64,000 bases of DNA from Crossaster papposus (Eukaryota > Echinodermata > Asteroidea > Velatida > Solasteridae), in contig JBAIAA010000599.1 of NCBI GenBank assembly GCA_037893245.1, positions 248,001-312,000 on the forward strand. The letters are read 5' to 3'. Positions 2,521 through 30,934 of the stretch are shown here, one piece after another; positions within the stretch are counted from its first letter, which is position 1, and each line of letters begins with the position of its first letter. A program made the position numbers and the translations under genes. Below the pieces are notes generated by a model that had not been told where the DNA came from, searched no databases, and saw only the letters and a program-made list of their open reading frames with translations.

Positions 2521-3084
2521 GCAGAATAGTAAGTGTTCACATCACAGTGTGACTGAGAGCATTCGCTGTGCTGAGCAGAATAGTGAGTGTTCCCATCACA
2601 GTGTGACTGAGAGCTCTCATTGTGCTGAGCAGAATAGTGAGTGTTCCCATCACAGTGTGACTGAGAGCAGTCACTGTGCTGAGCAAAATAGTGAGTGTTC
2701 CCATCACAGTGTGACTGAGAGCTCTCATTGTGCTGAGCAGAATAGTTGAGTGTTCCCATCACAGTGTGACTGAGAGCAGTCACTGTGCTGAGCAAAATAG
2801 TGAGTGTTCCCATCACAGAGTGACTGAGAGCAGTCACCTGGCTGAGCAGAATAGTGAGTGTTTCCATTGCAGTGTGACTGTGAGAGCAGTCACTGTGCTG
2901 AGCAGAATAGTGAATGTTCACGCCACAGTGTGACAGAGAGCAGTCCCTTCGAAAAGCAAAATAGTGAGTGTTCCAATCACAGTGTGACTGAGAGCAGTCA
3001 CTGTGCTGAACAGAATAGTGACTGTTCTCATCACAGTGTGACTGAGAGCTGTCAATGTGCTGAGCAGAATAGTAAGTGTTCACT

Positions 3085-5680
3085 TCATAGTGTGACTGAG
3101 AGCAGTCACTGTGCTGAGCAGAATAGTGAGTGTTCCCATCACAATGCGACTGTGAGAGCAGTCACTGTGCAGAGCAGAATAGTGAGTGTTCCCATCACAG
3201 TGTGACTGCGAGAGCATTCACTGTGCAGAGCAGAATAGTGAGTGTTCCCATCACAGTGTGACTGCGAGAGCAATCATTGTGCAGAGCACAATAGTGAGTG
3301 TTCCCATCACAGTGTTACAGAGAGCAGTCTCTCTGCTGAGCAGAATAGTGAGTGTTCACATCACTATGTGACTGAGAGCAGTCACTGTGCTGAGCAGAAT
3401 AGTGAGTGTTCCCATCACAGTGTGACTGAGAGCAGTCACTTGGCTGAGCAGAATAGTGAGTGTTTCCATTGCAGTGTGACTGTGAGAGCAGTCACTGTGC
3501 TGAGCAGAATAGTAAATGTTCCCGCCACAGTGTGACTGAGAGCAGTCACTTCGCAAAGCAAAAATAGTGAGTGTTCACATCACAGTGTGACTGAGAGCAG
3601 TCACTGTGCTGAGCAGAATAGTGAGTGTTCTCATCACAGTGTGACTGTGAGAGCATTAACTATGCTGAGCAGAATAGTGAGTGTTCCCGTTACAGTGTGA
3701 CTGAGAGCTCTCACTGTGCTGAGCAGAATAGTAAGTGTTCCCATCACAGTGTGACTGAGCGCAGTGACTGTGCTGAGCAAAATATTGAGTGTTCCCATCA
3801 CAGTGTGACTGAGAGCAGTCACTGTGCTGAACAAAATAGTGAGTGTTCCCTTCACAGTGTGACTGAGAGCAGTCACTGTGCTGAACAGAATAGTGAGTGT
3901 TCCCATCACATTGTGACTGAGAGCAGTCACTGTGCTGAGCAGAATAGTGAGTGTTCCCATCACAATGCGACTGTGAGAGCAGTCACTGTGCAGAGCAGAA
4001 TAGTGAGTGTTCCCATCACAGTGTGACTGCGAGAGCATTCACTGTGCAGAGCAGAATAGTGAGTGTTCCCATCACAGTGTGACTGCGAGAGCAATCATTG
4101 TGCAGAGCAGAATAGTGAGTGTTCCCATCACAGTGTTACAGAGAGCAGTCTCTCTGCTGAGCAGAATAGTGAATGTTCCCATCACAGTGCGGCTGTGAGA
4201 GCAGTCATTGTGCAGAGCAGAATAGTGAGTGTTCCCATCACAGTGTGACTGCGAGAGCATTCACTTTGTTGAGCAAAATAGTGTGTTCCAATCACAGTAT
4301 GACTAAGAGCAGTCACTGTGCTGAACAGAATAGTGAGTGTTCCCATCACAGTGTGACTGCGAGAGCATTCAATGTGCTGAGCAGAATAGTGAGTATTCTC
4401 ATCATAGTGTGACTGAGAGCAGTCACTGTGCTGAGCAGAATAGTGAGTGTTCCCATCACAATGCGACTGTGAGAGCAGTCACTGTGCAGAGCAGAATAGT
4501 GAGTGTTCCCATCACAGTGTGACTGCGAGAGCATTCACTGTGCAGAGCAGAATAGTGAGTGTTCCCATCACAGTGTGACTGCGAGAGCAATCATTGTGCA
4601 GAGCACAATAGTGAGTGTTCCCATCACAGTGTTACAGAGAGCAGTCTCTCTGCTGAGCAGAATAGTGAGTGTTCACATCACTATGTGACTGAGAGCAGTC
4701 ACTGTGCTGAGCAGAATAGTGAGTGTTCCCATCACAGTGTGACTGAGAGCAGTCACTTGGCTGAGCAGAATAGTGAGTGTTTCCATTGCAGTGTGACTGT
4801 GAGAGCAGTCACTGTGCTGAGCAGAATAGTAAATGTTCCCGCCACAGTGTGACTGAGAGCAGTCACTTCGCAAAGCAAAAATAGTGAGTGTTCACATCAC
4901 AGTGTGACTGAGAGCAGTCACTGTGCTGAGCAGAATAGTGAGTGTTCTCATCACAGTGTGACTGTGAGAGCATTAACTATGCTGAGCAGAATAGTGAGTG
5001 TTCCCGTTACAGTGTGACTGAGAGCTCTCACTGTGCTGAGCAGAATAGTAAGTGTTCCCATCACAGTGTGACTGAGCGCAGTGACTGTGCTGAGCAAAAT
5101 ATTGAGTGTTCCCATCACAGTGTGACTGAGAGCAGTCACTGTGCTGAACAAAATAGTGAGTGTTCCCTTCACAGTGTGACTGAGAGCAGTCACTGTGCTG
5201 AACAGAATAGTGAGTGTTCCCATCACAGTGTGACTGAGAGCAGTCACTGTGCTGAGCAGAATAGTGAGTGTTCCCATCACAATGCGACTGTGAGAGCAGT
5301 CACTGTGCAGAGCAGAATAGTGAGTGTTCCCATCACAGTGTGACTGCGAGAGCATTCACTGTGCAGAGCAGAATAGTGAGTGTTCCCATCACAGTGTGAC
5401 TGCGAGAGCAATCATTGTGCAGAGCAGAATAGTGAGTGTTCCCATCACAGTGTTACAGAGAGCAGTCTCTCTGCTGAGCAGAATAGTGAATGTTCCCATC
5501 ACAGTGCGGCTGTGAGAGCAGTCATTGTGCAGAGCAGAATAGTGAGTGTTCCCATCACAGTGTGACTGCGAGAGCATTCACTTTGTTGAGCAAAATAGTG
5601 TGTTCCAATCACAGTATGACTAAGAGCAGTCACTGTGCTGAACAGAATAGTGAGTGTTCCCATCACAGTGTGACTGCGAG
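3085..5680. repeat. 1,317-bp tandem duplication
   Basis: Positions 3186, 3625 and 4007 recur at 4503, 4942 and 5324. The two copies are nearly identical over 1.97 units. The older neighbour at 522 shares the start. Confidence 0.85.
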
Positions 5681-6816
5681 AGCATTCACTGTGCAGAGCA
5701 GAATAGTGAGTATTCTCATCACAGTGTTACAGAGAGCAGTCACTGTGTTGAGCAGAATAGTGAGTGTTCCCATCACTGTGTGACTGTGAGAGCATTCGCT
5801 GTGCTGAGCAGAATAGTGAGTGTTCCCGTTACAGTGTGACTGAGAGCTCTCACTGTGCTGAGCAAAATATTGAGTGTTCCCATCACAGTGTGACTGAGAG
5901 CAGTCACTGTGCTGAACAGAATAGTGAGTGTTCCCATCACAGTGTGACTGAGAGCTGTCATTGTGCTGAACAGAATAGTGAGTGTTCCCACAACAGTGTG
6001 ACTGAGAGCAGTCATTATGCTGAGCAGAATAGTGAGTGTTCCAATCACAGTATGGCTAAGAGCAGTCACTCTGCTGAGCAGAATATTGAGTGTTCCCATC
6101 ACAGTGTGACTGAGAGCTATCGTTGTGCTGAACAGAATAGTGAGTGTTCCCACCACAGTGTGACTGAGAGCAGTCACTGTGCTGAACAGAATAGTAAGTG
6201 TTCCCATCACAGTGTGACTGTGAGAGCATTCACTGTGCTGAGCAGAATAATGAGTGTTCCCGTCACAGTGTGACTGAGAGCTCTCATTGTGCTGAGCAAA
6301 ATAGTGAGTGTTCCCATCACAGTGTGACTGAGAGCAGTCACTGTGCTGAGCAAAATAGTGAGTGTTCCCATCACAGTGTGACTGAGAGCAGTCACTGTGC
6401 TGGACAGAATAGTGAGTGTTCCCATCACAGTGTGACTGAGAGCTGTCAATGTGCTGAGCAGAATAGTAAGTGTTCACATCACAGTGTGGCTGAGAGCAGT
6501 CACTGTGCTGAGCAGAATAGTGCGTGTTCCCATCACAGTGTGACTACGAGGGCATTCACTGTGCAGAGCAGAATAGTGAGTGTTCCCATCACAGTGTGAC
6601 TGAGAGCAGTCACTGTGCTGAACAGAATAGTGAGTGTTCCCATCACAGTGTGACTGAGAGCTGTCAATGTGCTGAGCAGAATAGTAAGTATTCACACTAC
6701 AGTATGACTGAGAGCAGTCACTGTGCTGAGCAGAATAGTGAGTATTCTCATCACAGTGTTACAGAGAGCAGTCACTGTGCTGAGCAGAATAGTGAGTGTT
6801 CCCATCACTGTGTGAC

Positions 6817-6819
6817 TGT
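6817..6819. other. Target-site duplication TGT, left copy
   Basis: Last three satellite bases before the CACTG terminus. They match the TGT at 19596-19598 beyond the right terminus and the single TGT in the empty site at 30932-30934. Confidence 0.85.
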
Positions 6820-6831
6820 CACTGTGCGAAA
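6820..6831 (+). repeat. Left terminal inverted repeat of the element
   Basis: Reads CACTGTGCGAAA. Compared with the reverse complement of the right end (CACTGTTTAAAA), positions 1-6 and 10-12 match. The identity is short, so the ends are assigned mainly from the flanking duplication and the empty site. Confidence 0.6.
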
Positions 6832-6836
6832 GGGAT

Positions 6837-6940
6837 GGGTTTACGAAAATTTAACGACGCATGAAACGAACGATGGAGGTGCACCCCCCCGTTTCGGCTA
6901 ACAGTTTACCAACAGAGTGCGGGGTTATGAAAATGTAACG
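6837..6940 (+). repeat. Subterminal direct repeats, left end of element
   Basis: GGGTTTACGAAAATTTAACG (6837-6856) and GGGGTTATGAAAATGTAACG (6921-6940) agree at 17 of 20 bases. GGGGTTATG recurs near the right end at 19410-19418. GTGCACCC at 6879-6886 has an inverted partner GGGTGCAC at 19449-19456. CACTA-class elements usually bind transposase at subterminal repeats, so these are candidate sites by inference only. Confidence 0.45.
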
Positions 6941-6944
6941 CCAA

Positions 6945-8085
6945 GTTTGCACGCTTTACGACGAGCAGAACACGTTAATTGGAAATTTTTCGTGCACTAG
7001 TTTACATAATTCTATGCACATGGAATCAAGCCGAAACCGGGTGTATTCATTACATAGGATTCAGTTTGCTATTGGTTAGTCATAGTAAGAATGTTGAACG
7101 GCCATATTGCCGCTAAAATAATATGCTCACACAAGATGGCCGATTCTGTTTTAGAATATGTGCATACAAAACTGAAAGTATTTTCCTTAAATCGTTTTCA
7201 CGCAAACAATCAATAACATTCTTATTATTTTCCTGGTTCGGTAGTTTACCTCTCTTAAATGTGTATATAAAAATGACATGTTTACGCAACACGACTCGTC
7301 AGTGTACTAAGATTTTGTTTGTCATTTCGTTCCTATCAAGTTTTCTCAAATAATTTGATTTTACAGGTTTTATATAGTTAGTGCGAAACATCAAAGTGAA
7401 CCAATTAGTACTGTGTACATCGGCTTTCATACGTACAGTGTACATGTATGTATACGTATGAACATGTACAATCTGCAAATACATCTCGTTATAATGTACA
7501 GAACAAAATAACCCGCATGTTGATAAACTGACCGGGTCTACTCAAATAAAAGTATCATTACAAACACATGTACATTCAAACAGGATAGTGTCTTGTTAAT
7601 AGTGTGAGTTTCCCCTGCCACTCTCTAAATCACCTTGTGTTTGTTTTAGAAACACCAAATATCTTGTTTTGTATAATGTTAATGTTTTTGTTTTCTTCGT
7701 AAAGCCGCCTTCAGTCCGCATACAGTGCTAAAGTGGTGTAAGATTTGTGCGCACAACGCTAAGTTGTATCACTCGTTTATAAATTACACAGTGACTTCAT
7801 AGTACAGGCCATACAGTACTGACACAGGCGTGCAGCATATCCATGCAGCGCTGTGTGATCTATCACAGCGAGTTGTGAACTTTTGTCTTTTTCCGTAGTG
7901 ATTCGAATTACCTTAACATGCATTCGACCCAAACCGGCCCTTTACGTTTATAGCGAGTGCGAACCGCTAAACCACACCGTACGCATACTATGTTGGTACA
8001 CTAGGTACATGTACGTGTACAGTATATACCAATTATTGATGCCCGGGCAAGCGTACTCCATAAAGTTGAGTTAGTCTTGCATACG
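6945..8085. other. Element interior, no gene seen
   Basis: AT-rich low-copy DNA with many TACATGTA-type words. Two imperfect palindromes are visible. CATACGTA (7428-7435) and TACGTATG (7453-7460) form 8-bp arms around a 17-base loop. CGCTGTGTGAT and ATCACAGCG pair across 7849-7870 with a TG bulge. Open frames here are short and unlike any family I recognise. Confidence 0.5.
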
Positions 8086-8088
8086 CAC

Positions 8089-8162
8089 TGTGGACCTCCG
8101 AACAATATAGGTCCACACGATGCGGGAAGAGGTTACGGTTTGTGGACTTGCACACGTCCACA
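8089..8162. repeat. Double hairpin built on TGTGGAC
   Basis: TGTGGACCT (8089-8097) and AGGTCCACA (8109-8117) are perfect 9-bp arms around 11 bases. TGTGGAC (8141-8147) and GTCCACA (8156-8162) are perfect 7-bp arms around 8 bases. The same heptamer thus occurs four times in alternating orientation within 74 bp. It could be a structured RNA, a dimer-binding site or the trace of a small inverted element; nothing identifies which. Confidence 0.7.
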
Positions 8163-8169
8163 ATCCGTT

Positions 8170-9420
8170 TTTCAGTTTCCGAAAAAGAGCGCTAGAGGGA
8201 AAACGGGTTAGGGTTATATATAGAAAAGATAGAAGGGACAGCTGAGAGGCCCATAATCCAAATTTGAGGGTAAATTTGTTTTGGGGAAGCGAGAAAAATG
8301 AGTATTTAGTCAAAGTTTGTTAACTACACGAAGACAAAGGAATGTCCACAGTACGTATGTAAGGTAAAGCTAGTTGTGTGTGTGTGTGTTTGTTTTCCCG
8401 TAAATAAGCACCAACCAGCATATCAATACATGTACATCGCCTGCTAAAACAATTTCTCGTACTATCGTCAGCTAAAATGGGATGTACAGTAGCTGCGAAG
8501 ATTCATCTGGGGACCAACACAAACACACATAAACTTGCTTTAATAGTAAAACAAGCTTAATAATTACAAATTAAACTTGCATTAGACTTGTGCTGGGATG
8601 ATCAGACTCTTTAGGCAACTTGTATTCTCAACTAAGGGATACTATTTATGTTTCATTATTATACATGGTAACCATTCAACCAAGGGTGTTGTTTGTATGG
8701 GGCACCACAAATTGAATAAATTAAATCATATATAAAACAAAATAAAACATTAAGTCGGGGTTCAAACGTAAGAACAAAACTTCACACCCAAAATATACAT
8801 TTGTAAATAAAAAGTGCTTGACTCAATCACACACCAGACTAATTTCTTAATATAAGTTTGAAATTGATTATTATAAGAAAAGCTCGATCCACTTAGACAG
8901 CAAGATCTTAGACAAATTTGATTCGTAATGAGGGATATTTTCAAGACAATGTTTAAATAGAGTGACACAAAATTAGAATTGAACGGTATCTGACCACATT
9001 AGTTTGGTAAAAACGTGTGGGTTTTTTTCTCGGACGAAATGAAATCTGAGAATTGGTAAATTTAAGTAGAAAATGTTTTATAATACCCGTGGTAAAAACG
9101 TTCAACACAGGATTAAAATAGTAATAAAGAAACGAGGGGAAATAGTACAGGGCGAGTAAACAAAAAGTGAAACCCCGACACAAAACAAAATATATTTCAT
9201 ATAAAAAACACCAAAGTTATGCTTACATGTAGTTGAAAATAAACCACACGTGAATATTGGGAGCTAAATTTTCTTAGTTCATGCATGCAGAGACGTCTGC
9301 ATCAAGGTATCAAAAGTACTAGACGAAACAGCTTGAGAATTTCTCTGAACGTACTCTCTATTCGAAAGAAATTAAACAAAACCACAATTTATTATATACT
9401 AATACCACTGAGTATAGATT
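8170..9420. other. Element interior, no gene seen
   Basis: AT-rich DNA with a short TG microsatellite (about 8374-8389) and several AATAAA words. Frames are short on both strands and show no recognisable domain. Confidence 0.5.
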
Positions 9421-9430
9421 TAGCCTGCTG

Positions 9431-9520
9431 AGGTCACCAGGGTCAAGTAGAAGGCTTGGCTTTTCTAGCCACAGAGGATCTCCACCTGTTGTGCTACCCG
9501 ATTTATAAGGTCAAGGGACA
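9431..9520 (+). promoter_or_regulatory. Possible nuclear-receptor-type direct repeats
   Basis: AGGTCA (9431-9436) and GGGTCA (9440-9445) form a direct repeat with a 3-base spacer. AGGTCA (9508-9513) and GGGACA (9515-9520) form one with a 1-base spacer. These match the half-site grammar of nuclear receptors. Chance occurrence in 12 kb is quite possible and no promoter is established here. Confidence 0.2.
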
Positions 9521-9669
9521 GTCACAGACACTTTCTGCGCGGGATAATTCTAACGAACGCCATAACGGATTTTGCTAAGCCTGTACTAGCTAGCTGTACT
9601 GCAACAACGTTTGCACAACATCCCCTGAAAATAGATATTCCTGAAACCATCAAATAACACTTCCTTGCC

Positions 9670-9850
9670 ATGGTAGCCATAACAGTAGGTTATGATTTAG
9701 CCGTTGACGAAGTTGTCCGTCGAGTTATTCTGACTGAGCTTGACACCACCATGGAATTATTATGACCACAGAGCAAGGAACAGTGAATGACCAAACGGTC
9801 GGTGTTGCTGTGGATGCTATGGTGCTATGGATTTTGAACTAGTAATGGGG
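9670..9850 (+). other. Exon-like fragment with strong splice donor
   Basis: A 31-codon frame opens at ATG 9670 and stops at TGA 9763-9765. Further on, ATG at 9827 opens eight codons (MDFELVMG) that run directly into a consensus donor, GTAAGT at 9851-9856. The region is less AT-rich than its surroundings. This could be a 5' exon, a captured gene piece inside the element, or chance. I recognise no protein family. Confidence 0.2.
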
Positions 9851-9869
9851 GTAAGTTAATTTGTTAATC

Positions 9870-10330
9870 GTCCAAAATAAATACTACTACTGAGTAGTGT
9901 AAACAGTTTAAAGAGGTTTTTTTATTACGATTTAGGCAACCACGTGATATTTTTGTCGCATAGAGTATAACTAGTTTCAGTGATAACCTGTCCTTCCTCT
10001 ATGCAATTTGCTGTATTATTTTGTTTTACTATGCATGGTCTTACAACTTGATCATGTTGTTTGTTGGTCAGGACTATTTTGAGTTTGAACTTAGATTCGT
10101 AGACCCTACTGTTCTTTATTGTTCTACGTCTGCTACTAGTACTCGAATGCAGACAAACTCTCAAACACATGCAGGGTTTTCCCTGTATAAAGCCTAGACA
10201 CATGCTGGAAATGATAGAGGGAACAGTATACAATTGTTCGTGTTTAACAAAACCCTTGATAACCTCGTATTTATATTGTTCGATATTAAATTGAAGTCCT
10301 GGTGCGTGAAATTATGTCTTTTCACACTTT
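9870..10330. other. Element interior, no gene seen
   Basis: AT-rich DNA. A 102-codon minus-strand frame (10233-9925) has no recognisable motif and looks like chance openness. Confidence 0.4.
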
Positions 10331-10334
10331 TCAG

Positions 10335-10449
10335 GGTTCGCTGGCGCCGAAACCGTCTCCTTGTGACCATTCATTTGGTGAGACTACCCGGATGGGCGGA
10401 GGGCTACTCTTTCAGGAGGATAGACTATTATTTTGAGGAAAACATGGAG
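10335..10449 (+). other. Exon-like GC-richer segment
   Basis: A pyrimidine-rich stretch ending TTTTCAG (to 10334) resembles a splice acceptor. GTCAGT at 10450 resembles a donor, and a better donor, GTGAGA, lies at 10378. The 115-base segment is much richer in GC than its neighbours and lies in a 99-codon open frame (10234-10533), in which it encodes an Arg-rich stretch followed by an acidic, aromatic one. It also contains GGATGGGCGGAG (10390-10401), shared with the promoter-like module of the tandem repeats downstream. It may be a captured exon or a diverged repeat piece; I recognise no family. Confidence 0.25.
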
Positions 10450-11390
10450 GTCAGTAAATCAAATTTCAAGATTAATCGATCATTATTGGAACATTTGGGG
10501 GAAAATTCAAGGAAACCTGCAAAGCGATATTAAATTTTAATATTACTGTTCGTCGTGTGCACATATCCCTTGGACTATAAAAACAAATATACCTTTGATG
10601 TTGCACAATTCAATTGTTTGTACCCACCATGCCCACTGGCTATTGTTTTGAATTTAATGATAACCTTTATCTCTCCTGACAAAATTAATGAGCTCACTGC
10701 ATACCCTTTTACTCACGCTTACTCACAAAAAGAACAATAAACCTCGACGGTTGAAACACATAAAAGCACAATCAGCAATCCTGGCCATGATTATATTAAG
10801 ATTTTACCTTAGTTTCGGTTTTTATCTATGTTACAGTTGTTTTCCTAGTTCCGGATCGCTTTCAATAAAAACCTCCCTCTTCTTATGGCTCGTGCCCCGA
10901 AACAAAAATCTCGGTGCATTTTTTAAAGAAACATGTAAGCTTCTTGATACACAAATATTATTTTAATAAATTATCCATAAAGGAATTGCGGCTACATTTT
11001 TGACTCGCACTTTGACATGTTTGGACGGTTTGTAGAAAATCACAAGAGTCGCAAAACCACAATATGTCACTCACAACGTGTGATTTCCATTATGCCTTTT
11101 TGTAATCTACAGTTGTATTAACTCATGCATCGATTATTTGTTGAGTCAAAATCAGTAGAAAATCTCTAGTATTAAAACATCTTACAAAGAGTGAACTTGT
11201 ACTTTTTCATAGTTTCAGATCGCGCTTAAAATACGTGCATCGACTGCACGCCCACAAGCAATTTTATGTGACATGTTCTATAAGTCAGTTTATCGGCCCG
11301 TTCCCGCGCGCACCACGGTATGGTCGCACTGCTCTACACAAACGAAAATTTCAAAATCAATGTCTTACCCAAGTCGTCTTTTTAAAACTG
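10450..11390. other. Element interior, no gene seen
   Basis: AT-rich DNA. Short frames (10555-10740, 10688-10966, 11235-11438) overlap one another and have no recognisable domain, and I treat them as chance. Confidence 0.45.
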
Positions 11391-11397
11391 TATTGGA

Positions 11398-11436
11398 AGT
11401 ATTTAAAAAAAAATTTTTTTTTAATATTTAAATACT
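11398..11436. repeat. A9T9 palindrome with longer outer arms
   Basis: Nine A (11405-11413) followed by nine T (11414-11422) form a perfect inverted core. The outer arms AGTATTTAAA (11398-11407) and TTTAAATACT (11427-11436) are also perfect inverted repeats. It is likely to bend or extrude and prone to length change. Confidence 0.7.
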
Positions 11437-11654
11437 AAAATCGGCTTGACTCGAGTTGGTTCTAGCTAACATGTATTTTCTCGCGCGATTATTTGTTTAT
11501 GTACGAAGCAGTTTTAACCGATCCGGAATTTGTTAAGTCGATTCGCAACTACAGCAAAAGGATGTCGGCACTTGTATATATTTATTTTATTTATTTATTA
11601 ACCACTTCAAACAGCGAAAGAACCGCCAATTACTGGAATGAGATAAACATACAC

Positions 11655-11677
11655 ACAATCTCTCCCAGAGAGATTGT
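11655..11677. repeat. Perfect 10-bp hairpin, 3-base loop
   Basis: ACAATCTCTC (11655-11664), loop CCA and GAGAGATTGT (11668-11677). No T run follows and no gene ends here, so I do not call it a terminator. Confidence 0.75.
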
Positions 11678-11699
11678 ATATAACAAATAGGCCTATATG

Positions 11700-12235
11700 A
11701 AATATAAATGTAAATGTCGTTTTGACGTTGTATTTTTAAAATTAGAAGAGCAATATTGAAACAAAAACAATAGTATCTCCACCACCCAAAGTAAATGATA
11801 CTAAACCCATTTCACTTGAATGTTGAGGATTGGTCTAGCCGAAAGCAGTCTGAATAATTGTTGCGATCTCGAACTAGGAAAACGACTGTATCAGCGTAGT
11901 ACTACTACTAGGGAACTCAAAATGAATGTTAGAAAAACATTGTTTGCTGAAGTATTTGTTGCCGCTAACCGATCAGTTTTAATCCACCGGAAGTGAAACT
12001 CATTACCAAACGGGCTGATGACAAGCATGGGACGAGTCAGAATCGCTTTTCATACGTCTCAATCAGTATAGCTCTAGCAATCTAATGAATGACTTTGCAA
12101 ATAACTGGTGCCTGTCAATGATTACGTGTTTTGTGTCAGGTATACTATAGGTCTCTCGCAAGTCTCGTCATTTTCTAAACTTCCTTTTTTACACTTTATC
12201 TTTCTGTTCACATTACAAAAGGTGTATTCATTGAA
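11700..12235. other. Element interior, no gene seen
   Basis: AT-rich DNA without repeats or long frames that I can recognise. Confidence 0.5.
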
Positions 12236-12239
12236 AATC

Positions 12240-12446
12240 CGCTAACTTCAACGGAAATTGTGTGCAGCATTCACCGATCATTGCGTAATACGCGTACGAG
12301 ACAAGTCAACATACTTCTGCGGCTTCTGCACAGGCAGTGAGGCTTTCGACTTTGAGTTACTTCAGTTGCCAGACTTCGCCGCTTTCGAGGTTTTCCGCGT
12401 ATAACGAAGAGGAGCAAGATCCCCCAAAACAAAAACTATGGTAGGT
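12240..12446 (+). promoter_or_regulatory. CpG-rich promoter / first-exon-like stretch
   Basis: About 200 bp with a high local density of CpG in an AT-rich setting. It ends AAAACAAAAACTATG (ATG at 12438-12440) followed directly by GTAGGT (12441-12446). An ATG immediately before a donor is a gene plan in which exon 1 holds the leader plus the start codon. The AAAACTATGG ending recurs, always in plus orientation, in the tandem repeats downstream (near 17070, 17590 and 18160). No downstream coding exon is identified, so this may be a remnant. Confidence 0.3.
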
Positions 12447-12458
12447 CAACAAGATACG

Positions 12459-12499
12459 TATTAATAATAATAATTATAACAATAATAAAAATAAAAATA
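12459..12499. repeat. AAT-rich microsatellite
   Basis: Imperfect (TAA)n/(AAAT)n stretch about 40 bp long. Confidence 0.8.
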
Positions 12500-12589
12500 G
12501 CATTGAACGATGAAATGTATTGACTATTATACAATATGATGCATGTGTGTGAATATTTTAAATACGTCATTTGAGATTTTGTTTTTCAT

Positions 12590-12680
12590 TTTATTACTTT
12601 TAAAATTTACCGATCCTGGGGTTCTTGTACTAGTGATGGCTTCAATAGTCCAATCCTGGGGTCTCGGTGCATATAGATAG
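12590..12680 (+). repeat. Diverged fragment of tandem family F1
   Basis: Segments such as GTGATGGCTTCAATAGTCCA followed by ATCCTGG are similar to the F1 segment at 15350-15375 and its copies. It appears to be an older, separated piece of the family. Confidence 0.4.
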
Positions 12681-12964
12681 GTGGTGAAAACACGTTTAGT
12701 TTTTGAAACACAATAGGAATCCCGGTTATATTTCAAAATGCATTGAAAGCGGGCTTGTATAAAGCAACATAAATATGTTGTTTTCAACTTGAACCCTCGG
12801 CTGCCAATTTCTGTAATACTCACACACGTTCTAAAACTATTAATTGCGTGTTTATTTTGTCTGCTCTATTATGGAATATCATTACCCCCACAATGAAGGT
12901 ATAATCTATGCTCACATGCAATTTTCCACGATGAATATAAATACGAATACATTTCTAGTTTGAT

Positions 12965-14340
12965 TTGTCGTAGTTTTTCAGTATAGTCTAGATTTGTTAA
13001 AAGGTTGCTGTGAAATACTTAAACAATATTACTGTTAAATTCTTTATCAAGCGTTTGAGACCAGCATTGCTAGCTTTATGCTTTGTTTTGTTTGAAAAAC
13101 TTAAACTTGATGGCATTGCCTGTCAGCAGCATCCTAAGGGACAGCCTTTATGACACACATGTAGAGCCGACAAAGACGTATTCATTCCCCAATCAACTTG
13201 GTTCGGTTCATTTTGCGCGACCTGGCCGCTCGGCCCCAGCTCAATTTACAACCAAAAACTTGACTGTGCCTCACTTAACAGGCCGACCTTTTTTTCTTAA
13301 TGACATGGACCCTAATCAATCAGTCTTTGAATAGGCGGAGCTAAAACTCATGGATGCCGAGAAAGGCACGAAAAACAGCGTTTGTTTGCAACCGGCGTCG
13401 AGCAGTTATTCTTATGTAATTTGTTTTTTTCGCGATCGCCGTCTGGCGATCGCGAATTTGTCTTTATAAAATATTTTGTTTACAGAATAATTACAAGATA
13501 TCTAGCGCAATAATTTTGCTGGATGCCTAACATCATTATTTACTTTTAGATGAGTAAGATATTTCTTAATAATTCGGTAGTAAATATTTTCGATATCTGC
13601 AAATGATGTATCCCACCTTTAACACTGACAAAGTCAAAAAGGCCATGTTATGTACAATCGTATAAATATTATAAGAAAAACGTTTACTAAAATCAAAACA
13701 ACCTTTTTTTCTTGAAACTATAGGCCTATACATGTATGGTGATTACGTTTTTATTTAAAATTGTAGTCTTGCTGCTGTCGTATTGAGTGTGTGTGACAAG
13801 TTTGGAACTTTGTTTTCGAGGGCTAACTTTGGCATCAATTTACTACAGTTTTATGTTGGATTTTGTTTAATTCAGTACACGTATAATTGCTGACTCTTAC
13901 AAATATATACCTAGACTTTTTTTTCAAAAAAGTTGAAATTCAAATTCCGAAATCAAGAGAAGGCTTATTTTAGCAGTGTTTCTAAATCGTGGAATTCTGT
14001 GCTGGCAGTGGGTGGTGGCTTTTATAGTTCGATCCTGGAATGTCATCCACAGAAGTGCGTGATGGATACACAATATTTTTCGCACAAATCAACATAAATG
14101 CAACCGTTTCTTCTGTTCTTTTTTTAATTTAAAGAGAAGAAGCCATACCCAGGTTAGCCCAGGACAAACAAAGTACTGTTCTATTTACATGCATGCTCTT
14201 TGATTTTGTTTTTCTAATATCGGCCGACCATTTGTTTTTATCTGTATTAATATATGCCATTTTGTATGGTGAAATGTTTTTATATTTACTTTGATCTATA
14301 CAGTTCTATACAAGATTATCAAGAATATGACTTACCAGTA
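12965..14340 (+). repeat. Tandem family F1, copy 1 (diverged)
   Basis: Aligned by shared landmarks with copies 2 and 3. ATCAAGCG(T/G)TTGAGA, GCTCAATTT, AATCAATCAGT and the segment from GCAGTGTTTCTAAATCG (13973) occur in the same order. The TATA-like motif is degraded here, and a frame kept open in copies 2 and 3 is shifted by 2 bases near 13950. It contains a GC-rich hairpin (13429-13456) absent from the other copies. Confidence 0.75.
13429..13456. repeat. Perfect 12-bp hairpin containing GCGATCGC twice
   Basis: TTCGCGATCGCC (13429-13440), loop GTCT and GGCGATCGCGAA (13445-13456). The arms are perfect and strikingly CpG-rich in an AT-rich setting, and each contains the octamer GCGATCGC. It is found in F1 copy 1 only. 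It could be the footprint of a small inverted insertion or a structured RNA; I do not know. Confidence 0.85.
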
Positions 14341-14578
14341 CGTGATTATTTTTGATAGTAGATTTGTTTGAAGAGACATTGTGAATTACTTGAAAATCTT
14401 ACTGTGAAATCTTAAATCAAGCGGTTGAGAACAGCATTGATTTGTTGGTATATCAACTTTAACCTTGGTAGCATTGGACTGTCAATTTGTCAAACCATAG
14501 GTGAAACCATGGTCAAACCAAGTGTAGTTCTCAGTTCACAAAACACTTGAGATATAGGCCTACCATGGAGGTATGAGA

Positions 14579-14774
14579 ACGGCGAACAAGCTCAATTTGA
14601 CCGCAAATGATTATTGCGCCTGAACATGTGGGGGGGGGGGCGGGCATTGCTGTAACGGGGTGACCTTTTTATAAAAACGGCGAACAAGCTCAATTTGACC
14701 GCAAATGATTATTGCGCCTGAACATGTGGGGGGGGGGCGGGCATTGCTGTAACGGGGTGACCTTTTTATAAAAA
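14579..14774 (+). repeat. 98-bp tandem duplication inside F1 copy 2
   Basis: The segment starting ACGGCGAACAAGC at 14579 repeats from 14677. It includes a G run of 11 and then 10 bases and a TATAAAAA motif. Copy 3 has it once, with a 14-G run (16032-16045). Confidence 0.9.
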
Positions 14775-14780
14775 GGCATG

Positions 14781-14782
<2 letters not shown>

Positions 14783-14835
<53 letters not shown>
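14783..14835 (+). repeat. 53-base homopolymer C tract
   Basis: Uninterrupted C from 14783 to 14835. The corresponding place in copy 3 has only CCCTCC (16087-16092), so the tract has expanded in copy 2. The complementary strand is a candidate quadruplex and this strand a candidate i-motif. The exact length is likely unreliable in any assembly. The proline-rich frame through it is an artefact. Confidence 0.95.
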
Positions 14836-14837
<2 letters not shown>

Positions 14838-15648
14838 ATCAATCAGTACTGGGATGGGCGGAGCGAAAACTATAGGTGTAGTAAACAAAACTCATATGTA
14901 CAAAACAATTTAACCATTAAAACCTTTTTGGGTGTTAATTACATGATTGTTAGAAAGGAAGAGTTTTGAATGTAATGTTTAGATCACCAGACCTCCAGGC
15001 TCCAGGACTGACAAACTTTTACTACAACCAAAGTCCTTATTTGTTTCTTTTCTTGGAACTATGTTAATTACATTTATAATGTATATTTCTTCACGATAAC
15101 AACAAGCATGTTCTTGGAGAGTTTGGAACTTTGTTTTGAAGGGCCATCAAAAGCATCAATGCTCACATAGTTCAATATTGGATAGTTACACGTGTATTTT
15201 GTTTAATCCAGTACACGTATTGGTGACTGTTACAAACATAATTATAGACAGACTGTTTTCCCCAAAAGTTGAAAAACAAATTCCGAAAACCAAAAAGAAG
15301 GCTTTTTTTAGCAGTGTTTCTAAATCGTGGAATTCTGTGCTGGCAGTGGGTGATGGCTTTTATAGTTCGATCCTGGAATGTCATCAACAGAAGTGCGTGA
15401 TGGATACACATTATTTTTCGCACAAATCAACATAAATGCAACCGTTTCTTCTGTTCTTTTTTGAATTTGAAAAGAAGAAGCCATACCCAGGTTAGCTCAG
15501 GACAAACAGAGTACTGTTCTATTTACATGCATGCTCTTTGATTTTGTTTTTTCTAATATCGGCCGACCATTTATTTTTATCTGTATAATATATGTCATTT
15601 TGTATGGTGAAATGTTCTTATATTTACTTTGATCTATACAGTTCTATA

Positions 15649-15721
15649 CAAGATTGGGTTAAGAGATAAAAAGCAAATTGTTAATTCCTCTTTGTCGGGA
15701 AAGGGTATTTATCACAAGATT
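15649..15721 (+). repeat. 66-bp indel flanked by CAAGATT direct repeats
   Basis: CAAGATT at 15649-15655 and again at 15715-15721, where copy 2 has it once (near 14311). The extra segment (ATAAAAAGCAAAT, then CTTTGT) resembles the F2 family segment near 17300. It was therefore probably lost from other F1 copies by recombination between the 7-bp repeats rather than gained here. Confidence 0.6.
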
Positions 15722-15740
15722 ATCAGGAATATGACTTACC

Positions 15741-16742
15741 AGTGCGTGATTATTTTTGATAGTAGATTTGTTTGAAGAGACATTGTGAATTACTTGAAAA
15801 TCTTACTGTGAAATCTTAAATCAAGCGGTTGAGAACAGCATCGATTTGTTCGTATATCAACTTTAACCTTGGTAGCATTGGACTGTCAATTTGTCAAACC
15901 ATAGGTGAAACCATGGTCAAACCAAGTGTAGTTCTGTTCACAAAACACTTGAGATATAGGCCTACCATGGAGGTATGAGAACGGCGAACAAGCTCAATTT
16001 GACCGCAAATGATTATTGCGCCTGAACATGTGGGGGGGGGGGGGGCATTGCTGTAACGGGGTGACCTTTTTATAAAAAGACATGAACCCTCCAATCAATC
16101 AGTAGTGGGATGGGCGGAGCGAAAACTATAGGTGTAGTAAACCAAACTCATATGTACAAAACAATTTAACCATTGAAACCTTTTTGGGTGTTAATTAGAT
16201 GATTGTTAGAAAGGAAAAGTTTTGAATGTAATGTTTAGATCACCAGACCTCCAGGCTCCAGGACTGACAAACTTTTACTACAACCAAAGTTCTTGTTTGT
16301 TTCTTTCTTGGAACTATGTTAATTACACTTATAATGTATATTTCTTCACGATAACAACAAGCATGTTCTTCGAGAGTTTGGAACTTTGTTTTGAAGGGCC
16401 ATCTTTGGCATCAATGTTCACAAAGTTCAATATTGGATAGTTACACGTGTATTTTGTTTAATCCAGTACACGTATTGGTGACTGTTAGAAACATAATTAT
16501 AGACAGACTGTTTTCCTCAAAAGTTGAAAAACAAATTCCGAAAACCAAAAAGAAGGCATATTTTAGCAGTGTTTTTAAATCGTGGAATTCTGTGCTGGCA
16601 GTGGGTGATGGCTTTTATAGTTCGATCTTGTAATGTCATCCACAGGAGTGCGTGCTGGATACACAATATTTGTCGCACAAAACAACATAAATGCATCCGT
16701 TTCTTCTGTTCTCTTTTGAATTAAAAAAGAAAAGAAGCATAC
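15741..16742 (+). repeat. Tandem family F1, copy 3 (truncated)
   Basis: Follows copy 2 closely from GATAGTAGATTTG (15758) to about 16742, where it stops at CATAC and family F2 begins. It retains the short C tract and the intact promoter-like spacing described separately. Confidence 0.85.
16071..16128 (+). promoter_or_regulatory. TATA / initiator / GC-box-like module
   Basis: TATAAAAAG (16071-16079) is followed by TCAGT, whose A (16101) lies 30 bases after the first T of the TATA motif. GGGCGG follows (16112-16117), then AAAACTATAGG. A spacing of 30 between TATA and initiator is the usual metazoan core-promoter geometry. The same motifs occur in F1 copy 2, where the 53-C run pushes TATA (14767) 78 bases from the A of TCAGT (14845). 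No transcript is known, so function is inference. Confidence 0.35.
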
Positions 16743-17258
16743 ACTATTTTTTTGTTTTAAAACGTTGCTGCTTCTCGCACATTTCCTGTAAGATTATTTG
16801 ATGGGTAAAAAAGCAAAACCTTCGGTTTATTTACTTTTGTAATGGAGGATATTTGTTTTAAAGTGTACATCCTAACCCTTGTTTATTATTTGTAAAGTGA
16901 AGCTTAAACTTTCACGGCCTTGTCGTGTCGAACCGAGTTGGATAGCAAAGCCCATGAGACTGGAGGCTCGCTAGCTCAATTGATGACATCTGCTTGAAAT
17001 TTGGCGGGAATTCTCTAACGGGCCCACGTTTTTATCAATAAATATAAGCGCTCAGCGTCAGTGAAGCTAAAACTATGGATTCAGTAAAATATTTTATTAT
17101 TTTTGCAAGTTGATTTTGGCAGTCCTGTTTTTGTTTAAAATGTGTAGTCTATTTATTATTTCACAAAGGAAGAAAATATTGTTGTTTAACTTCATACAAC
17201 AACATGTATACTTTATTCACACGCATGCTCGTTGAGTTGTCCACTGTTATTTTTTATA
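16743..17258 (+). repeat. Tandem family F2, unit A1
   Basis: Begins near AACGTTGCTGCTTCTCGCAC (16761). The order is a CCTAACCCTTG segment, CGGCCTTGTCGTGTCGAAC, GCTCGCTAGCTCAATTGATG, GGGCCCACG, AAAACTATGGATTCAG, and a tail ending CATGCTCGTTGAGTTG. F1 and F2 share the motif order GCTCAATT, TTTTTAT and AAAACTATGG, so they are probably distant relatives. Confidence 0.8.
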
Positions 17259-17838
17259 AAAACGTTGCTGCTTCTCGCACATTTTCTGTAAGATTATTTG
17301 ATGGGTAAAAAGCAAATACTTTGTTTAATTTTTCTTTGTAATAGTGGATATTTTTTTAAAGTGTACATCCTAACCCTTGTTTATTATTTGTAAAGTGAAA
17401 CTTGAACTTTCACGGCCTTGTCGTGTCGAACCACACAGAGTTGGATAGCAAAGCCCATGAGACTGGAGGCTCGCTAGCTCAATTGATGACATCTGCTTGA
17501 AATTTGGCGGGAATTCTCAAACGGGCCCACGTTTTTATCAATACATTGTTTTATCAAAGAATAGAAGCACTTGGCGTCAGTTAAGTTAAAACTATGGATT
17601 TAGTAAAATATTTTAAAACTTAGTTTCTTTTTTTAGAATGAAGATTTCCTATTCTTAAAAAAACACTGTATGTCTCCACATTATGAGAGATTCATGCTTT
17701 GAAGTGTATACATTAATTTTGAGCACGGGGAGTTTAATTAGTTTTGTGTCTTTGTAGACAATGTTTTTGTTTTCTTTATGTTGACTGTCGTTTATTAATT
17801 TGTTTACAGAAGAAACAAGATTTACCACTATCATTTAA
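17259..17838 (+). repeat. Tandem family F2, unit B1
   Basis: Shares the first ~330 bp with A1 but has a different tail (a TCTCCACATTATGA segment followed by TTTAATTAGTTTTGTGTC). A and B alternate, so the true repeat is an A-B dimer of about 1.08-1.14 kb. Confidence 0.8.
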
Positions 17839-18348
17839 ACAAATCGTTGCTGCCTCTCGCACATTTCCTGTAAGATTATTTGATTGGTAAAAAGCAAATA
17901 CTTCGTTTTATTTGTCTTTGTAATGAAGGATATTTTTAAAAGGTGTACATCCTAACCCTTGTTTATTATTTGTAAAGTGAAACTTGAACTTTCACGGCCT
18001 TGTCGTGTCGAACCACACAGAGTTGGATAGCAAAGCCCATGAGACTGGAGGCTCGCTAGCTCAATTGATGACCCACATATCTGCTTGAAATTTGGCGGGA
18101 ATTCTCTAACGGGCCCACGTTGTTATCAGTGAATATAGGCGCTCAGCGTCAGTGAAGCTAAAACTATGGATTCAGTAAAATATTTTATTATTTTTGCAAG
18201 TTGATTTTGGCAGTCCTGTTTTTGTTTAAAATGTGTAGTCTATTTATTATTTTACAAAAGAAGAAAATAATGTTGTTTAACTTCATACAGCAAGATTTAT
18301 ACTTTATTCACAGGCATGCTCGTTGAGTTGTTCACTATTATTTGTATA
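17839..18348 (+). repeat. Tandem family F2, unit A2
   Basis: Second A-type unit, with the A1 tail (GTTTAACTTCATAC, then CATGCTCGTTGAGTTG) and small indels. Confidence 0.8.
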
Positions 18349-18975
18349 AAAACGTTGCAGCTTCTCGCACATTTTCTGTAAGATTATTTGATGGGTAAAA
18401 AGCAAATACTTCGTTTTATTTGTCTTTGTAATGGAGGATATTTTTAAAAAGTGTACATCATATCTTAAGCCTTGTTTATTTTTTGTAAAGTGAAACTTGA
18501 ACCTTCACAGCCTTGTCGTGTCGAACCACACAGAGTTGGATAGCAAAGCCCATGAGACTGGAGGCTCGCTAGCCCAATTGATGAGATCTGCTTGAAATTT
18601 GGCGGGAATTCTCTAACGGGCCCACGTTTTTCTCAATGATATAAGCGCTCAGCGTCATTGAAGCTAAAACTATGAATCCAGTAAAATATGTTAAAACTTA
18701 AAGTGTTTTTTTTCAGAATGTAGATTTCATATTGATACAAAACACCGTATATCTCCACATTATGACAGATTCATGCTTTGAAATGTATACATTAGTTATG
18801 TAGCACGTGTTGTTTAATTAGTTTTGTGTCTTTTGAACAAACAATTTGTTTTTTCTTTATGTGGACTGTCGGTTATTTTTTTTAAACAGAAGAAAATATT
18901 GTTATTTAAATTCATACCACAAGATTTATACTTTATTCACACGCATGCTCGTTGAGTTGTCCACTATTAATACTG
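18349..18975 (+). repeat. Tandem family F2, unit B2
   Basis: Second B-type unit with the B1 tail. It then re-acquires an A-type end (CATGCTCGTTGAGTTGTCC near 18945), which suggests an exchange between A and B tails. Unrelated sequence follows. Confidence 0.75.
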
Positions 18976-19124
18976 AAACAAAAATATTGTGTTTTCTTTA
19001 AGTTGACTCTCGGGCCGCACTGTCAGACTTTTGAATAATGATGTAAAACATGTGATTGAGAATAAATAATTTACCTCCTTCAAAAATGTTTTGTTGAATG
19101 ATTTTTGCTAAATGTGTCACAAGA

Positions 19125-19231
19125 GGGTGGGGTGGGTGGGGGGGGGGGGTGTACAGGTTGTTGGTGGATTTGTGTTGGTGGATTTGTGTTGGGGAGGAGG
19201 AATGGGGGAGGGGGGAGGGGGTGGGGGGGGG
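19125..19231 (+). repeat. G-rich tract near the right end
   Basis: Many runs of three or more G on the plus strand, enough for several quadruplexes. A short duplicated GTTGGTGGATTTGT lies inside. It is 365 bp from the right terminus. Confidence 0.85.
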
Positions 19232-19583
19232 ATAAAATAAGTGACTAAGTCAATAAATTGCAGGGGAAGCATTTGAAACCTTGAAGCTGGTATTTTTGTT
19301 CAATAATTATGGCTGAACAGAACGTACAACCTATTGACCATAAGCACGCACATGAATTTCCGCGAATTATAGTCTAACATAAAACAAGGAAAGCTGAAAT
19401 CTGGTTTCGGGGGTTATGGTTTCGGTATTCGGAAATTGCGGAGGCGAAGGGTGCACTTACTTAGTGTGGAAGCTATCTGGAACTAGAAATGAAAATGATC
19501 GCCGGAGACGGCCGGATATAGCAAAGAAATGGGTTGGTTTCGTGTTTAATTAGGCGTCAATTTCCGCATTCGAAAACGTGATT
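19232..19583. other. Right subterminal region of element
   Basis: No gene. It is CpG-richer than the interior, like the left subterminal region. It contains GGGGTTATG (19410-19418) and GGGTGCAC (19449-19456), which echo motifs at the left end. Confidence 0.5.
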
Positions 19584-19595
19584 TTTTAAACAGTG
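19584..19595 (-). repeat. Right terminal inverted repeat of the element
   Basis: The reverse complement reads CACTGTTTAAAA, ending at the TGT duplication. The A-rich stretch after CACTGT resembles the general form of CACTA-class ends. Confidence 0.6.
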
Positions 19596-19598
19596 TGT
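19596..19598. other. Target-site duplication TGT, right copy
   Basis: First three satellite bases after the CAGTG terminus. The sequence continues GAGAGCATTCGC exactly as in the uninterrupted copy from 30935. Confidence 0.85.
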
Positions 19599-22500
19599 GA
19601 GAGCATTCGCTGTGCTGAGCAGAATAGTGAGTGTTCCCGTTACAGTGTGACTGAGAGCTCTCACTGTGCTGAGCAAAATATTGAGTGTTCCCATCACAGT
19701 GTGACTGAGAGCAGTCACTGTGCTGAACAGAATAGTGAGTGTTCCCATCACAGTGTGACTGAGAGCTGTCATTGTGCTGAACAGAATAGTGAGTGTTCCC
19801 ACAACAGTGTGACTGAGAGCAGTCATTATGCTGAGCAGAATAGTGAGTGTTCCAATCACAGTATGGCTAAGAGCAGTCACTCTGCTGAGCAGAATATTGA
19901 GTGTTCCCATCACAGTGTGACTGAGAGCTATCGTTGTGCTGAACAGAATAGTGAGTGTTCCCACCACAGTGTGACTGAGAGCAGTCACTGTGCTGAGCAG
20001 AATAGTAAGTGTTCCCATCACAGTGTGACTGTGAGAGCATTCACTGTGCTGAGCAGAATAATGAGTGTTCCCGTCACAGTGTGACTGAGAGCTCTCATTG
20101 TGCTGAGCAGAATAGTGAGTGTTCCCATCACAATGTGACTGAGAGCAGTCACTGTGCTGAGCAAAATAGTGAGTGTTCCCATCACAGTGTGACTGAGAGC
20201 AGTCACTGTGCTGGACAGAATAGTGAGTGTTCCCATCACAGTGTGACTGAGAGCTGTCAATGTGCTGAGCAGAATAGTAAGTGTTCACATCACAGTGTGG
20301 CTGAGAGCAGTCACTGTGCTGAGCAGAATAGTGAGTGTTCCCATCACAGTGTGACTACGAGGGCATTCACTGTGCAGAGCAGAATAGTGAGTGTTCCCAT
20401 CACAGTGTGACTGAGAGCAGTCACTGTGCAGAACAGAATAGTGAGTGTTCCCATCACAGTGTGACTGAGAGCTGTCAATGTGCTGAGCAGAATAGTAAGT
20501 GTTCACACTACAGTATGACTGAGAGCAGTCACTGTGCTGAGCAGAATAGTGAGTGTTCCCATCACAATGTGACTGCGAGAGCATTCACTGTGCTGAACAG
20601 AATAGTGAGTGTTCCCATCACAGTGTGACTGAGAGCTGTCAATGTGCTGAGCAGAATAGTAAGTGTTCACACCACAGTGTGACCGGGAGCTGTCAATGTG
20701 CTGAGCAGAATAGTGAGTGTTCACATCACAGTACGACTGAGAGCAGTCACTGTGCTGTGCACAAGAGTGAGTGTTCCCATCACAGTGTGACTGCGAGAGC
20801 AATCATTGTGCAGAGCAGAATAGTGAGTGTTCCCATCACAGTGTTACAGAGAGCAGTCACTGTGCTGAGCAGAATAGTGAGTGTGCCCATCACAGTGTGA
20901 CTGTGAGAGCAGTCACTGTGCTGAGCAGAATAGTGAGTGTTCACATCACTATGTGACTGAGAGCAGTCACTGTGCTGAGCAGAATAGTGAGTGTTCCCAT
21001 CACAGTGTGACTGAGAGCAGTCACTTGGCTGAGCAGAATAGTGAGTGTTTCCATTGCAGTGTGACTGTGAGAGCAGTCACTGTGCTGAGCAGAATAGTAA
21101 ATGTTCCCGCCACAGTGTGACTGAGAGCAGTCACTTCGCAAAGCAAAAATAGTGAGTGTTCCCATCACAGTATGACTAAGAGCAGTCACTGTGCTGAGCA
21201 GAATAGTGAGTGTTCCCTTCACAGTGTGACTGAGAAATGTCATTGTACTGAACAGAATAGTGAGTGTTCCCACCACAGTGTGACTGAGAGCAGTCACTGT
21301 GCTGAACAGAATAGTGAGTGTTTCCATTGCAGTGTGACTGTGAGAGCAGTCACTGTGCTGAGCAGAATAGTGAATGTTCCCGCCACAGTGTGACTGAGAG
21401 CTCTCATTGTGCTGAGCAGAATAGTGAGTGTTCCCATCACAGTGTGACTGAGAGCAGTCACTGTGCTGAGCAAAATAGTGAGTGTTCCCATCACAGTGTG
21501 ACTGAGAGCTCTCATTGTGCTGAGCAGAATAGTGAATGTTCCCATCACAGTGTGACTGAGAGCAGTCACTGTGCTGAGCAAAATAGTGAGTGTTCCCATC
21601 ACAGTGTGACTGAGAGCAGTCACTGTGCTGAACAGAATAGTGAGTGTTCCCATGACAGTGTGACTGAGAGCTGTCAATGTGCTGAGCAGAATAGCAAGTG
21701 TTCACATCACAGTGTGACTGAGAGCAGTCACTGTGCTGATCAGAATAGTGAGTGTTCACATCACTATGTGACTGAGAGCAGTCACTGTGCTGAGCAGAAT
21801 AGTGAGTGTTCCCATCACAGTGTGACTGAGAGCAGTCACCTGGCTGAGCAGAATAGTGAGTGTTTCCATTGCAGTGTGACTGTGAGAGCAGTCACTGTGC
21901 TGAGCAGAATAGTGAATGTTCCCACCACAGTGTGACAGAGAGCAGTCTCTTCGAAAAGCAAAATAGTGAGTGTTCCAATCACAGTGTGACTGAGAGCAGT
22001 CACTGTGCTGAACAGAATAGTGACTGTTCCCATCACAGTGTGACTGAGAGCTGTCAATGTGCTGAGCAGAATAGTAAGTGTTCACATCACAGTGTGACTG
22101 AGAGCAGTCACTGTGCTGATCAGAATAGTGAGTGTTCACATCACTATGTGACTGAGAGCAGTCACTGTACTGAGCAGAATAGTGAGTGTTCCCATCACAG
22201 TGTGACTGAGAGCAGTCACTTGGCTGAGCAGAATAGTGAGTGTTTCCATTGCAGTGTGACTGTGAGAGCAGTCATTGTGCTGAGCAGAATAGTAAATGTT
22301 CCCGCCACAGTGTGACTGAGAGCAGTCACTTCGCAAAGCAAAAATAGTGAGTGTTCCGATCACAGTATGACTAAGAGCAGTCACTGTGCTGAGCAGAATA
22401 GTGAGTGTTCCCTTCACAGTGTGACTGAGAGATGTCATTGTGCTGAACAGAATAGTGAGTGTTCCCACTACTGTGTGACTGAGAGCAGTCACTGTGCTGA

Positions 22501-29900: not shown

Positions 29901-29948
29901 GTGAGAGCATTCGCTGTGCTGAGCAGAATAGTGAGTGTTCCCGTTACA
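23941..29948. repeat. 3,004-bp tandem duplication (unit A)
   Basis: Two complete copies, 23941-26944 and 26945-29948. By eye I find only two substitutions between them (near 25000 and near 27548). It is absent from units B and C. Confidence 0.9.
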
Positions 29949-30931: not shown

Positions 30932-30934
30932 TGT
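30932..30934. other. Uninterrupted (empty) insertion site
   Basis: A single TGT within GTGTGACTGTGAGAGC. Upstream satellite equals 6524-6819 (offset 24,115) and downstream satellite equals 19596 onward (offset 11,336). Further empty paralogues follow at about 41217 and 50306 by the landmark spacing. Confidence 0.85.

Follow-up and report, generated by a model that had tools for sequence, protein, structure and literature searches.

The 64,000-bp stretch of Crossaster papposus DNA analyzed here (the window, C599:248001-312000 of a 1.02-Gb assembly) is a 54-bp satellite array that is interrupted once, by a 12,776-bp block of differing composition that begins with CACTG and ends with CAGTG. The site records a single insertion by a genuine mobile family, a clean transposition into a higher-order satellite, and the block is very probably a copy of a large noncoding, nonautonomous DNA transposon family with CACTG...CAGTG ends, whose copies may be multiplied passively once they lie in arrays. 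G+C content is 0.35-0.42 in the 2-kb bins touching the block and about 0.47-0.48 in the rest of the window. The insertion, its target-site duplication, and the paralogous sites that lack it are as follows (TRF, Tandem Repeats Finder).

1..6819, no strand: left part of the 54-bp satellite array (TRF 1-6818, period 54, 124.9 copies)
6817..6819, no strand: left copy of the target-site duplication TGT, read from the sequence; a single TGT stands in the empty paralogues
6820..19595, + strand as read (left end CACTGTGCG...): transposon, apparently noncoding and nonautonomous; boundaries common to other copies, no Pfam match over the cutoff and no Rfam match at gathering scores
19596..19598, no strand: right copy of the target-site duplication TGT, from the sequence, flank BLAST, and joined-flank comparison
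19596..64000, no strand: right part of the 54-bp satellite array (TRF 19590-64000; a 218-bp period is also reported)
30932..30934, no strand: empty paralogous site 1 (TGT), 2 of 1,640 flank positions mismatched
41215..41217, no strand: empty paralogous site 2 (TGT), 5 of 1,640 mismatched
50304..50306, no strand: empty paralogous site 3 (TGT), 3 of 1,640 mismatched

At the left junction, TGT is followed from position 6820 by CACTGTGCGAAAG..., and at the right junction, ...TTTTTTAAACAGTG ends at 19595 and is followed by the second TGT. Written across the ends, the joins read TGT/CACTGTGCG on the left and AAACAGTG/TGT on the right, with CACTGT...ACAGTG as the termini. The duplication is exactly 3 bp, as the adjoining base on either side differs. 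An earlier note on this DNA had described a 12.8-kb CACTG...CAGTG element in a satellite, flanked by TGT and with uninterrupted single-TGT paralogues in the same window, and this description is exact to the base.

For the mismatch counts at the three paralogues, the block and one TGT were removed, 820 bp of left flank was rejoined to 820 bp of right flank, and the result was compared, ungapped, with the window. The next-best ungapped placement has 304 mismatches of 1,640, in a scan that left out placements starting at 5180 to 21299. BLAST of the 1.5-kb flanks aligned position 6818 with 30933, 41216, and 50305 and position 19596 with 30932, 41215, and 50304. Without gaps, the left 500 bp is identical in all three paralogues; the mismatch counts for the right 500 bp are 0, 2, and 1. 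The offsets of 24,115 and 11,336 given in the earlier note are correct, and their difference of 12,779 equals 12,776 plus 3. Short versions of the empty site, with up to 1 mismatch allowed, match the window in 18 places (34 bp) and 35 places (20 bp); they recur across many monomers, and it takes the long flanks to distinguish the three paralogues. The continued presence of these empty paralogues suggests that the higher-order copies came first and the jump later, and the three empty sites support the claim of a single transposition into an already organized array; the element would have inserted once, after all three had formed.

The same boundaries recur elsewhere in the genome. Searches with the first 401 bp and the last 356 bp of the element each returned 154 candidates, the best 40 of which were scored. 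The 40 scored left ends are 93 to 100% identical, and 38 match from the first base, the exceptions starting at base 2 (C304) and base 11 (C130). CACTG starts at the same base in all 20 left-end loci that were fetched, and CAGTG ends at the same base in 29 of 30 fetched right-end loci (L056 is not exact); a few other copies, e.g., on C9, C164, and C130, have changed ends. A check for conflicting boundaries found no differing left boundary in the 20 fetched loci; the two late starts are among the other 20 scored loci. Across the whole genome, a 26-bp left-end pattern, with up to 3 mismatches allowed, is found 77 times (53 times exactly, 5 times with one mismatch, 13 with two, and 6 with three), most of the 24 inexact ones belonging to a related subfamily, and a 27-bp right-end pattern at up to 3 mismatches has 73 matches, subfamilies included. 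The reversed patterns, used as controls for both ends, have no match in the genome.

Of the 77 left ends, 43 have a same-strand right end at a distance of up to 45 kb. These 43 pairs involve 41 right ends, as a single one serves three left ends on C646. Four pairs are shorter than 10 kb, 27 span 10 to 14 kb, and 12 are longer. At least one flank was read for 44 insertions, which represent 36 distinct sites by their flanks; both flanks were read for 25 copies, which represent 20 distinct sites. At 15 of these 20 sites, there is an exact 3-bp duplication, never extending to 4 bp (TGT, GCC, ATA four times, TAT twice, CGC, TTC, AAA, AAC, AAT, TAC, and CAT). Copies sharing both ends and bearing different 3-bp flanks, which the earlier note had proposed to look for, therefore exist, although 5 of the 20 sites (C1070, C950, C787, C164, and C130b) lack a duplication. 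At C130b, the element lacks its first bases, which makes the test unfair there, and the other sites may be recombinant, decayed, or misassembled. On two contigs (C31:298282-299637 and C864:1302361-1303713), three right ends stand in a row at a spacing of about 660 bp, and each contig has another right end some 13 kb off; these rows may be tandem terminal fragments or duplicated blocks.

Satellite arrays are error prone in assemblies. This fact and the five sites without a duplication would fit an ordinary segmental insertion or an assembly join rather than a transposon, an account that we consider extremely improbable and set aside: the boundaries recur with different flanks, the same boundary is present in 20 of 20 left-end and 29 of 30 right-end loci fetched, the flanks of the 44 insertions define 36 distinct sites, and 3-bp duplications are present at 15 of 20.

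Two further copies allow the sequence itself to be compared. Copy A (C679) is 16,398 bp long with duplication GCC/GCC, and copy C (C301) is 12,384 bp long with duplication AAT/AAT. Across their initial 7.8 kb, the window copy and copy A, which occupy different sites with different duplications, differ by 0.55% (Kimura two-parameter distance [K2P], 7,798 columns); the K2P distance between the window copy and copy C is 2.5% (7,309 columns). The occurrence at separate sites of near-identical copies in which no gene was recognized suggests that the element was mobilized in its gene-free form. No title or abstract opening describing this family was found in word searches of one open-access library, which does not prove that no such description exists.

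The element itself contains terminal segments, a piece that is probably a dispersed repeat, and direct repeats, both regions of which fall in its right half.

6820..6867, + strand: left terminal segment of 48 bp, 93.8% identical in relative V and 91.7% in relative W (W against copy C); the adjacent sequence differs
13348..13622, no strand: piece of about 275 bp (element 6529-6803), found again at two transposase loci and, next to copy C1070, outside the element
13799..16742, + strand: internal direct-repeat region 1 (element 6980-9923), with units of about 1.3 to 1.4 kb, 81 to 98% alike by self-BLAST
14783..14835, + strand: uninterrupted run of 53 cytosines within repeat region 1 (TRF)
16742..18969, + strand: internal direct-repeat region 2 (element 9923-12150), with offsets of about 0.5 and 1.08 kb, 87 to 89% alike by self-BLAST
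19241..19595, + strand: right terminal region (element 12422-12776), which aligns with the final 373 bp of W at 81.6% identity and ends ...TTTTTTAAACAGTG

Relatives V and W carry a variant left end. V, on C773, was read for 9,926 bp from its left end, and W, on C466, is 5,341 bp long with duplication ATA/ATA. The longer internal blocks that they have in common with the element are about 70 to 86% alike and differ in order, and the blocks of repeat region 1 reappear in both in rearranged form. A third class of left end, CACTGTGCGAAAGGGAAGTGTTTT, has 58 matches at up to 2 mismatches, some of which are of the V class, and a broad pattern covering all classes has 120. Judged by eye among the matches listed, the variant and third classes seem clustered on C251, C343, C678, C91, C31, C466, C773, and C263, and the left-end class of the window copy seems more widely spread.

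No coding capacity was detected in the element. Its longest internal stop-to-stop open frame is 128 amino acids (aa), and translation in six frames, with X in place of stops, yields no Pfam match above the cutoff; the weak matches below the cutoff are to Shikimate kinase (E = 0.057, 14 bits versus 22.1 needed) and Paralemmin (E = 0.47, 10.3 bits versus 27.3 needed). When 40 frames of at least 60 aa were compared with V and W, the same DNA was matched in several frames and on both strands, in some cases with stops, and such matches give no coding signal. A hidden degenerate transposase was rejected, given the lack of a Pfam match over the cutoff in six frames and of transposase similarity in tblastn, as was a known structured RNA or tRNA, for which Rfam at gathering scores and ARAGORN returned nothing. 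The absence of detected coding makes the element most likely nonautonomous. An origin from its host arrays was likewise rejected: BLAST against seven array units gave no match at an E value of 0.01, a threshold below which an 8-base identity with the 54-bp unit falls. This identity lies in CACTGTGC, the first eight bases of the element, which occurs exactly 524 times in the 54-bp array. The array also holds 651 occurrences of CACAGTG, which resembles the right end of the element and makes a 7-bp inverted repeat with CACTGTGC. This likeness may be a coincidence, or the satellite may have been built from terminal repeats.

By its ends and duplication, the element looks like a cut-and-paste transposon of the CMC (CACTA-Mirage-Chapaev) type. 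A DDE-type transposase of this group, encoded elsewhere, would recognize the terminal segments, and the block would have moved by cut-and-paste, the target being cut with a 3-bp stagger, a mode suggested by the duplication. Several findings weigh against this account. Besides the five sites without a duplication and a mode of movement that was deduced rather than observed, the exact terminal inverted repeat is only 6 bp long, and subterminal repeats (14- and 16-mers in the terminal 150 and 250 bp of the window copy and W) do not exceed those in 60 Markov shuffles each, a test that could miss a weaker or longer motif. Transposase_21 (PF02992) has 27 matches in the genome (26 over the cutoff, several in open frames of 762 to 930 aa) and none in 14 control genomes, and none of the 27 lies inside the 41 distinct paired intervals. 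In tblastn, 18 open reading frames (ORFs) from six Transposase_21 loci show no transposase similarity to the element or copy C. No autonomous partner was found among the copies read, with those of 17 to 40 kb, perhaps gene bearing, lying outside that reading, and a partner situated around the Transposase_21 genes was rejected since no paired interval holds one. Over the first 55 bp, the two ends show a weak gapped similarity, which was reached in 1 of 500 shuffles for the window copy, in none for W, and in 4 for copy C.

All tblastn matches with an E value under 0.1 are confined to the piece, about 275 bp long, that the element has in common with transposase loci L076 and L077. This piece also lies outside the element in the C1070 flank and was not counted as a link to the transposase; it is probably an independent dispersed repeat.

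The earlier note had assigned the element to CACTA/EnSpm. The features on which it relied, namely, CACTR ends (the CACTA/EnSpm termini being 5'-CACTR...YAGTG-3') and a 3-bp duplication, are present, but the label itself is not established, in view of the 6-bp inverted repeat and the lack of detected subterminal repeats and of a transposase partner. In the available part of one source, CACTA elements bear terminal inverted repeats, which measure 28 bp in its examples, and, as a hallmark, short direct and inverted subterminal units of 10 to 20 bp (PMC8978399). Nonautonomous members of CACTA/EnSpm resemble the element in their CACTR ends, 3-bp duplication, and subfamilies with common terminal segments, and they differ from it in that the element has no detected subterminal repeats, a 6-bp inverted repeat, and no transposase or linked partner; it gives no Transposase_21 match over the cutoff, although a nonautonomous member need not have one. 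That the element is specifically an EnSpm/CACTA element, derived by gene loss from an autonomous one and moved by the Transposase_21 enzymes of this genome, is a serious candidate falling a little short of even probability. The ends, the duplications, and the 27 Transposase_21 matches, several in long open frames, speak for it; the short inverted repeat, subterminal repeats no more frequent than in shuffles, the absence of any transposase trace in the element, and the lack of transposase genes inside paired copies speak against it, as do eight transposase loci (about 3.3 to 3.5 kb each, short of the transposon ends) whose likeness to the ends is loose, with 2 to 3 substitutions.

Membership in Chapaev, or in another, undescribed CMC-like superfamily with CAC...GTG ends, is a possibility to which we give appreciably less weight. 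As characterized in the accessible portion of PMC4079192, Chapaev has CAC/GTG ends and 3- to 4-bp duplications, and its Chapaev3 subgroup duplicates TWA; the CMCT group, in the part of PMC12730594 available, has mostly CA..TG ends and 2- to 5-bp duplications. The element has CAC...GTG termini and a duplication within the range given for Chapaev, which favors this placement. Unlike those of Chapaev3, its duplications are not TWA (TAA or TTA) at any of the 15 distinct sites, which removes this subgroup from consideration. The PIF/Harbinger superfamily also duplicates TWA. It too was rejected, with none of the 15 duplications of that form.

The family recurs in tandem arrays. Its junctions touch an array at 8 of the 36 distinct sites, or 7 of 36 once C950, tandem on its left side alone, is set aside, in a sample made up of the best-scoring copies, which favors recent or amplified ones, and with 16 of the 36 sites read on one side only. 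Seven unrelated unit types are involved (54, 217/219, 130, 141, 43, 230, and 398 bp), distributed among the sites as follows.

Window: 54-bp unit
GCC site: 219-bp unit
C9: 217-bp unit
C754: 130-bp unit
C55: 141-bp unit
C123b: 43-bp unit
C79: 398-bp unit
C950: 230-bp unit

The 398-bp unit on C79 (L020, C79:1025367-1028767) carries tRNA-Met genes, and the right flank there carries on the same array, 91.7% identical over 637 bp. On C950, the right flank has no match to the array on the left, and the site lacks a duplication.

At the GCC site, eight copies (three on C679, two each on C294 and C569, and one on C393) occupy one junction of a 219-bp satellite. The interiors of two of the eight were read: copies A (C679) and B (C294), with 99.44% identity across 14.5 kb, both carry a 3.7-kb insert, in the same position. 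In A, this insert is a non-long-terminal-repeat (non-LTR) retrotransposon (positions 1633-4863 of L021, C679:964000-973999, minus strand) with an uninterrupted frame of 1,077 aa bearing RVT_1 and Exo_endo_phos, a short repeated tail, and a 4-bp overlap of element sequence at the ends. Eight copies at one junction, together with the insert common to A and B, point to one insertion that was amplified rather than eight insertions, and copies inside tandem arrays may be multiplied in this passive manner along with the array. The insertion on C9 lies 3 bp from the GCC position in a homologous 217/219-bp monomer, about 80% identical, and has its own duplication, TAT; its separate duplication and position make it probably independent of the GCC site. 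On each of C679, C294, and C569, two GCC-site copies in the same orientation lie 711 to 744 kb apart, and these pairs may be large duplications or separated haplotypes.

We regard it as unlikely that tandem arrays are preferred targets of the family and not simply places where its copies survive or are multiplied. The eight array sites in seven unrelated unit types argue for a preference, as do the two independent insertions 3 bp apart in homologous monomers. The proportion of 8 in 36 stands without a background rate from random points in the genome, however, and the makeup of the sample, given above, also counts against this account. Still less probable is a broader proposal, that this is a large gene-free transposon lineage whose habitat is tandem arrays (satellites, minisatellites, and tRNA-gene clusters), which it would enter by preferential insertion through a transposase acting on ends that are not those of classical CACTA elements and in which array expansion would then maintain copy number partly without transposition. 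In the part of the source available, transposons of rye subtelomeres resemble the element in being embedded in tandem arrays and multiplied with them (PMC4857426); unlike what that part describes, the present case involves one noncoding family in several unrelated arrays, with base-exact duplications and empty paralogues.

Apart from the family, the assembly contains a contig of more than 5.2 Mb with two COX1-like genes that are free of stops by the standard code (C8:5208663-5210009 and 2872001-2873343). This contig is perhaps a bacterial genome, of a symbiont or a contaminant, within the animal assembly. On the mitochondrial contig, C1841, COX1 is read with 13 TGA codons and scores 839.5 bits against its best solved homologue under translation table 9 (AAA as Asn), compared with 808.3 bits under table 5. 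Next to COX1 are nad1, on the opposite strand, and, downstream, nad4L and cox2. Echinoderms have this code and gene order, and nad1 is inverted in sea stars or brittle stars, which makes the host of the assembly probably an echinoderm.

The window thus holds a base-exact natural record of a transposon insertion into a satellite, with the empty paralogues still present. The family is a large, gene-free one of a known kind of DNA transposon, and unusually large for an element without a recognized gene. Its recurrence in unrelated arrays, as yet uncontrolled, is the most interesting lead and raises a testable question, whether the family targets arrays or rides on their amplification. Even if a link to arrays is not proved, the family is a well-defined repeat for annotation of the genome; proof of such a link would be relevant to how satellites take up foreign sequence and propagate it.

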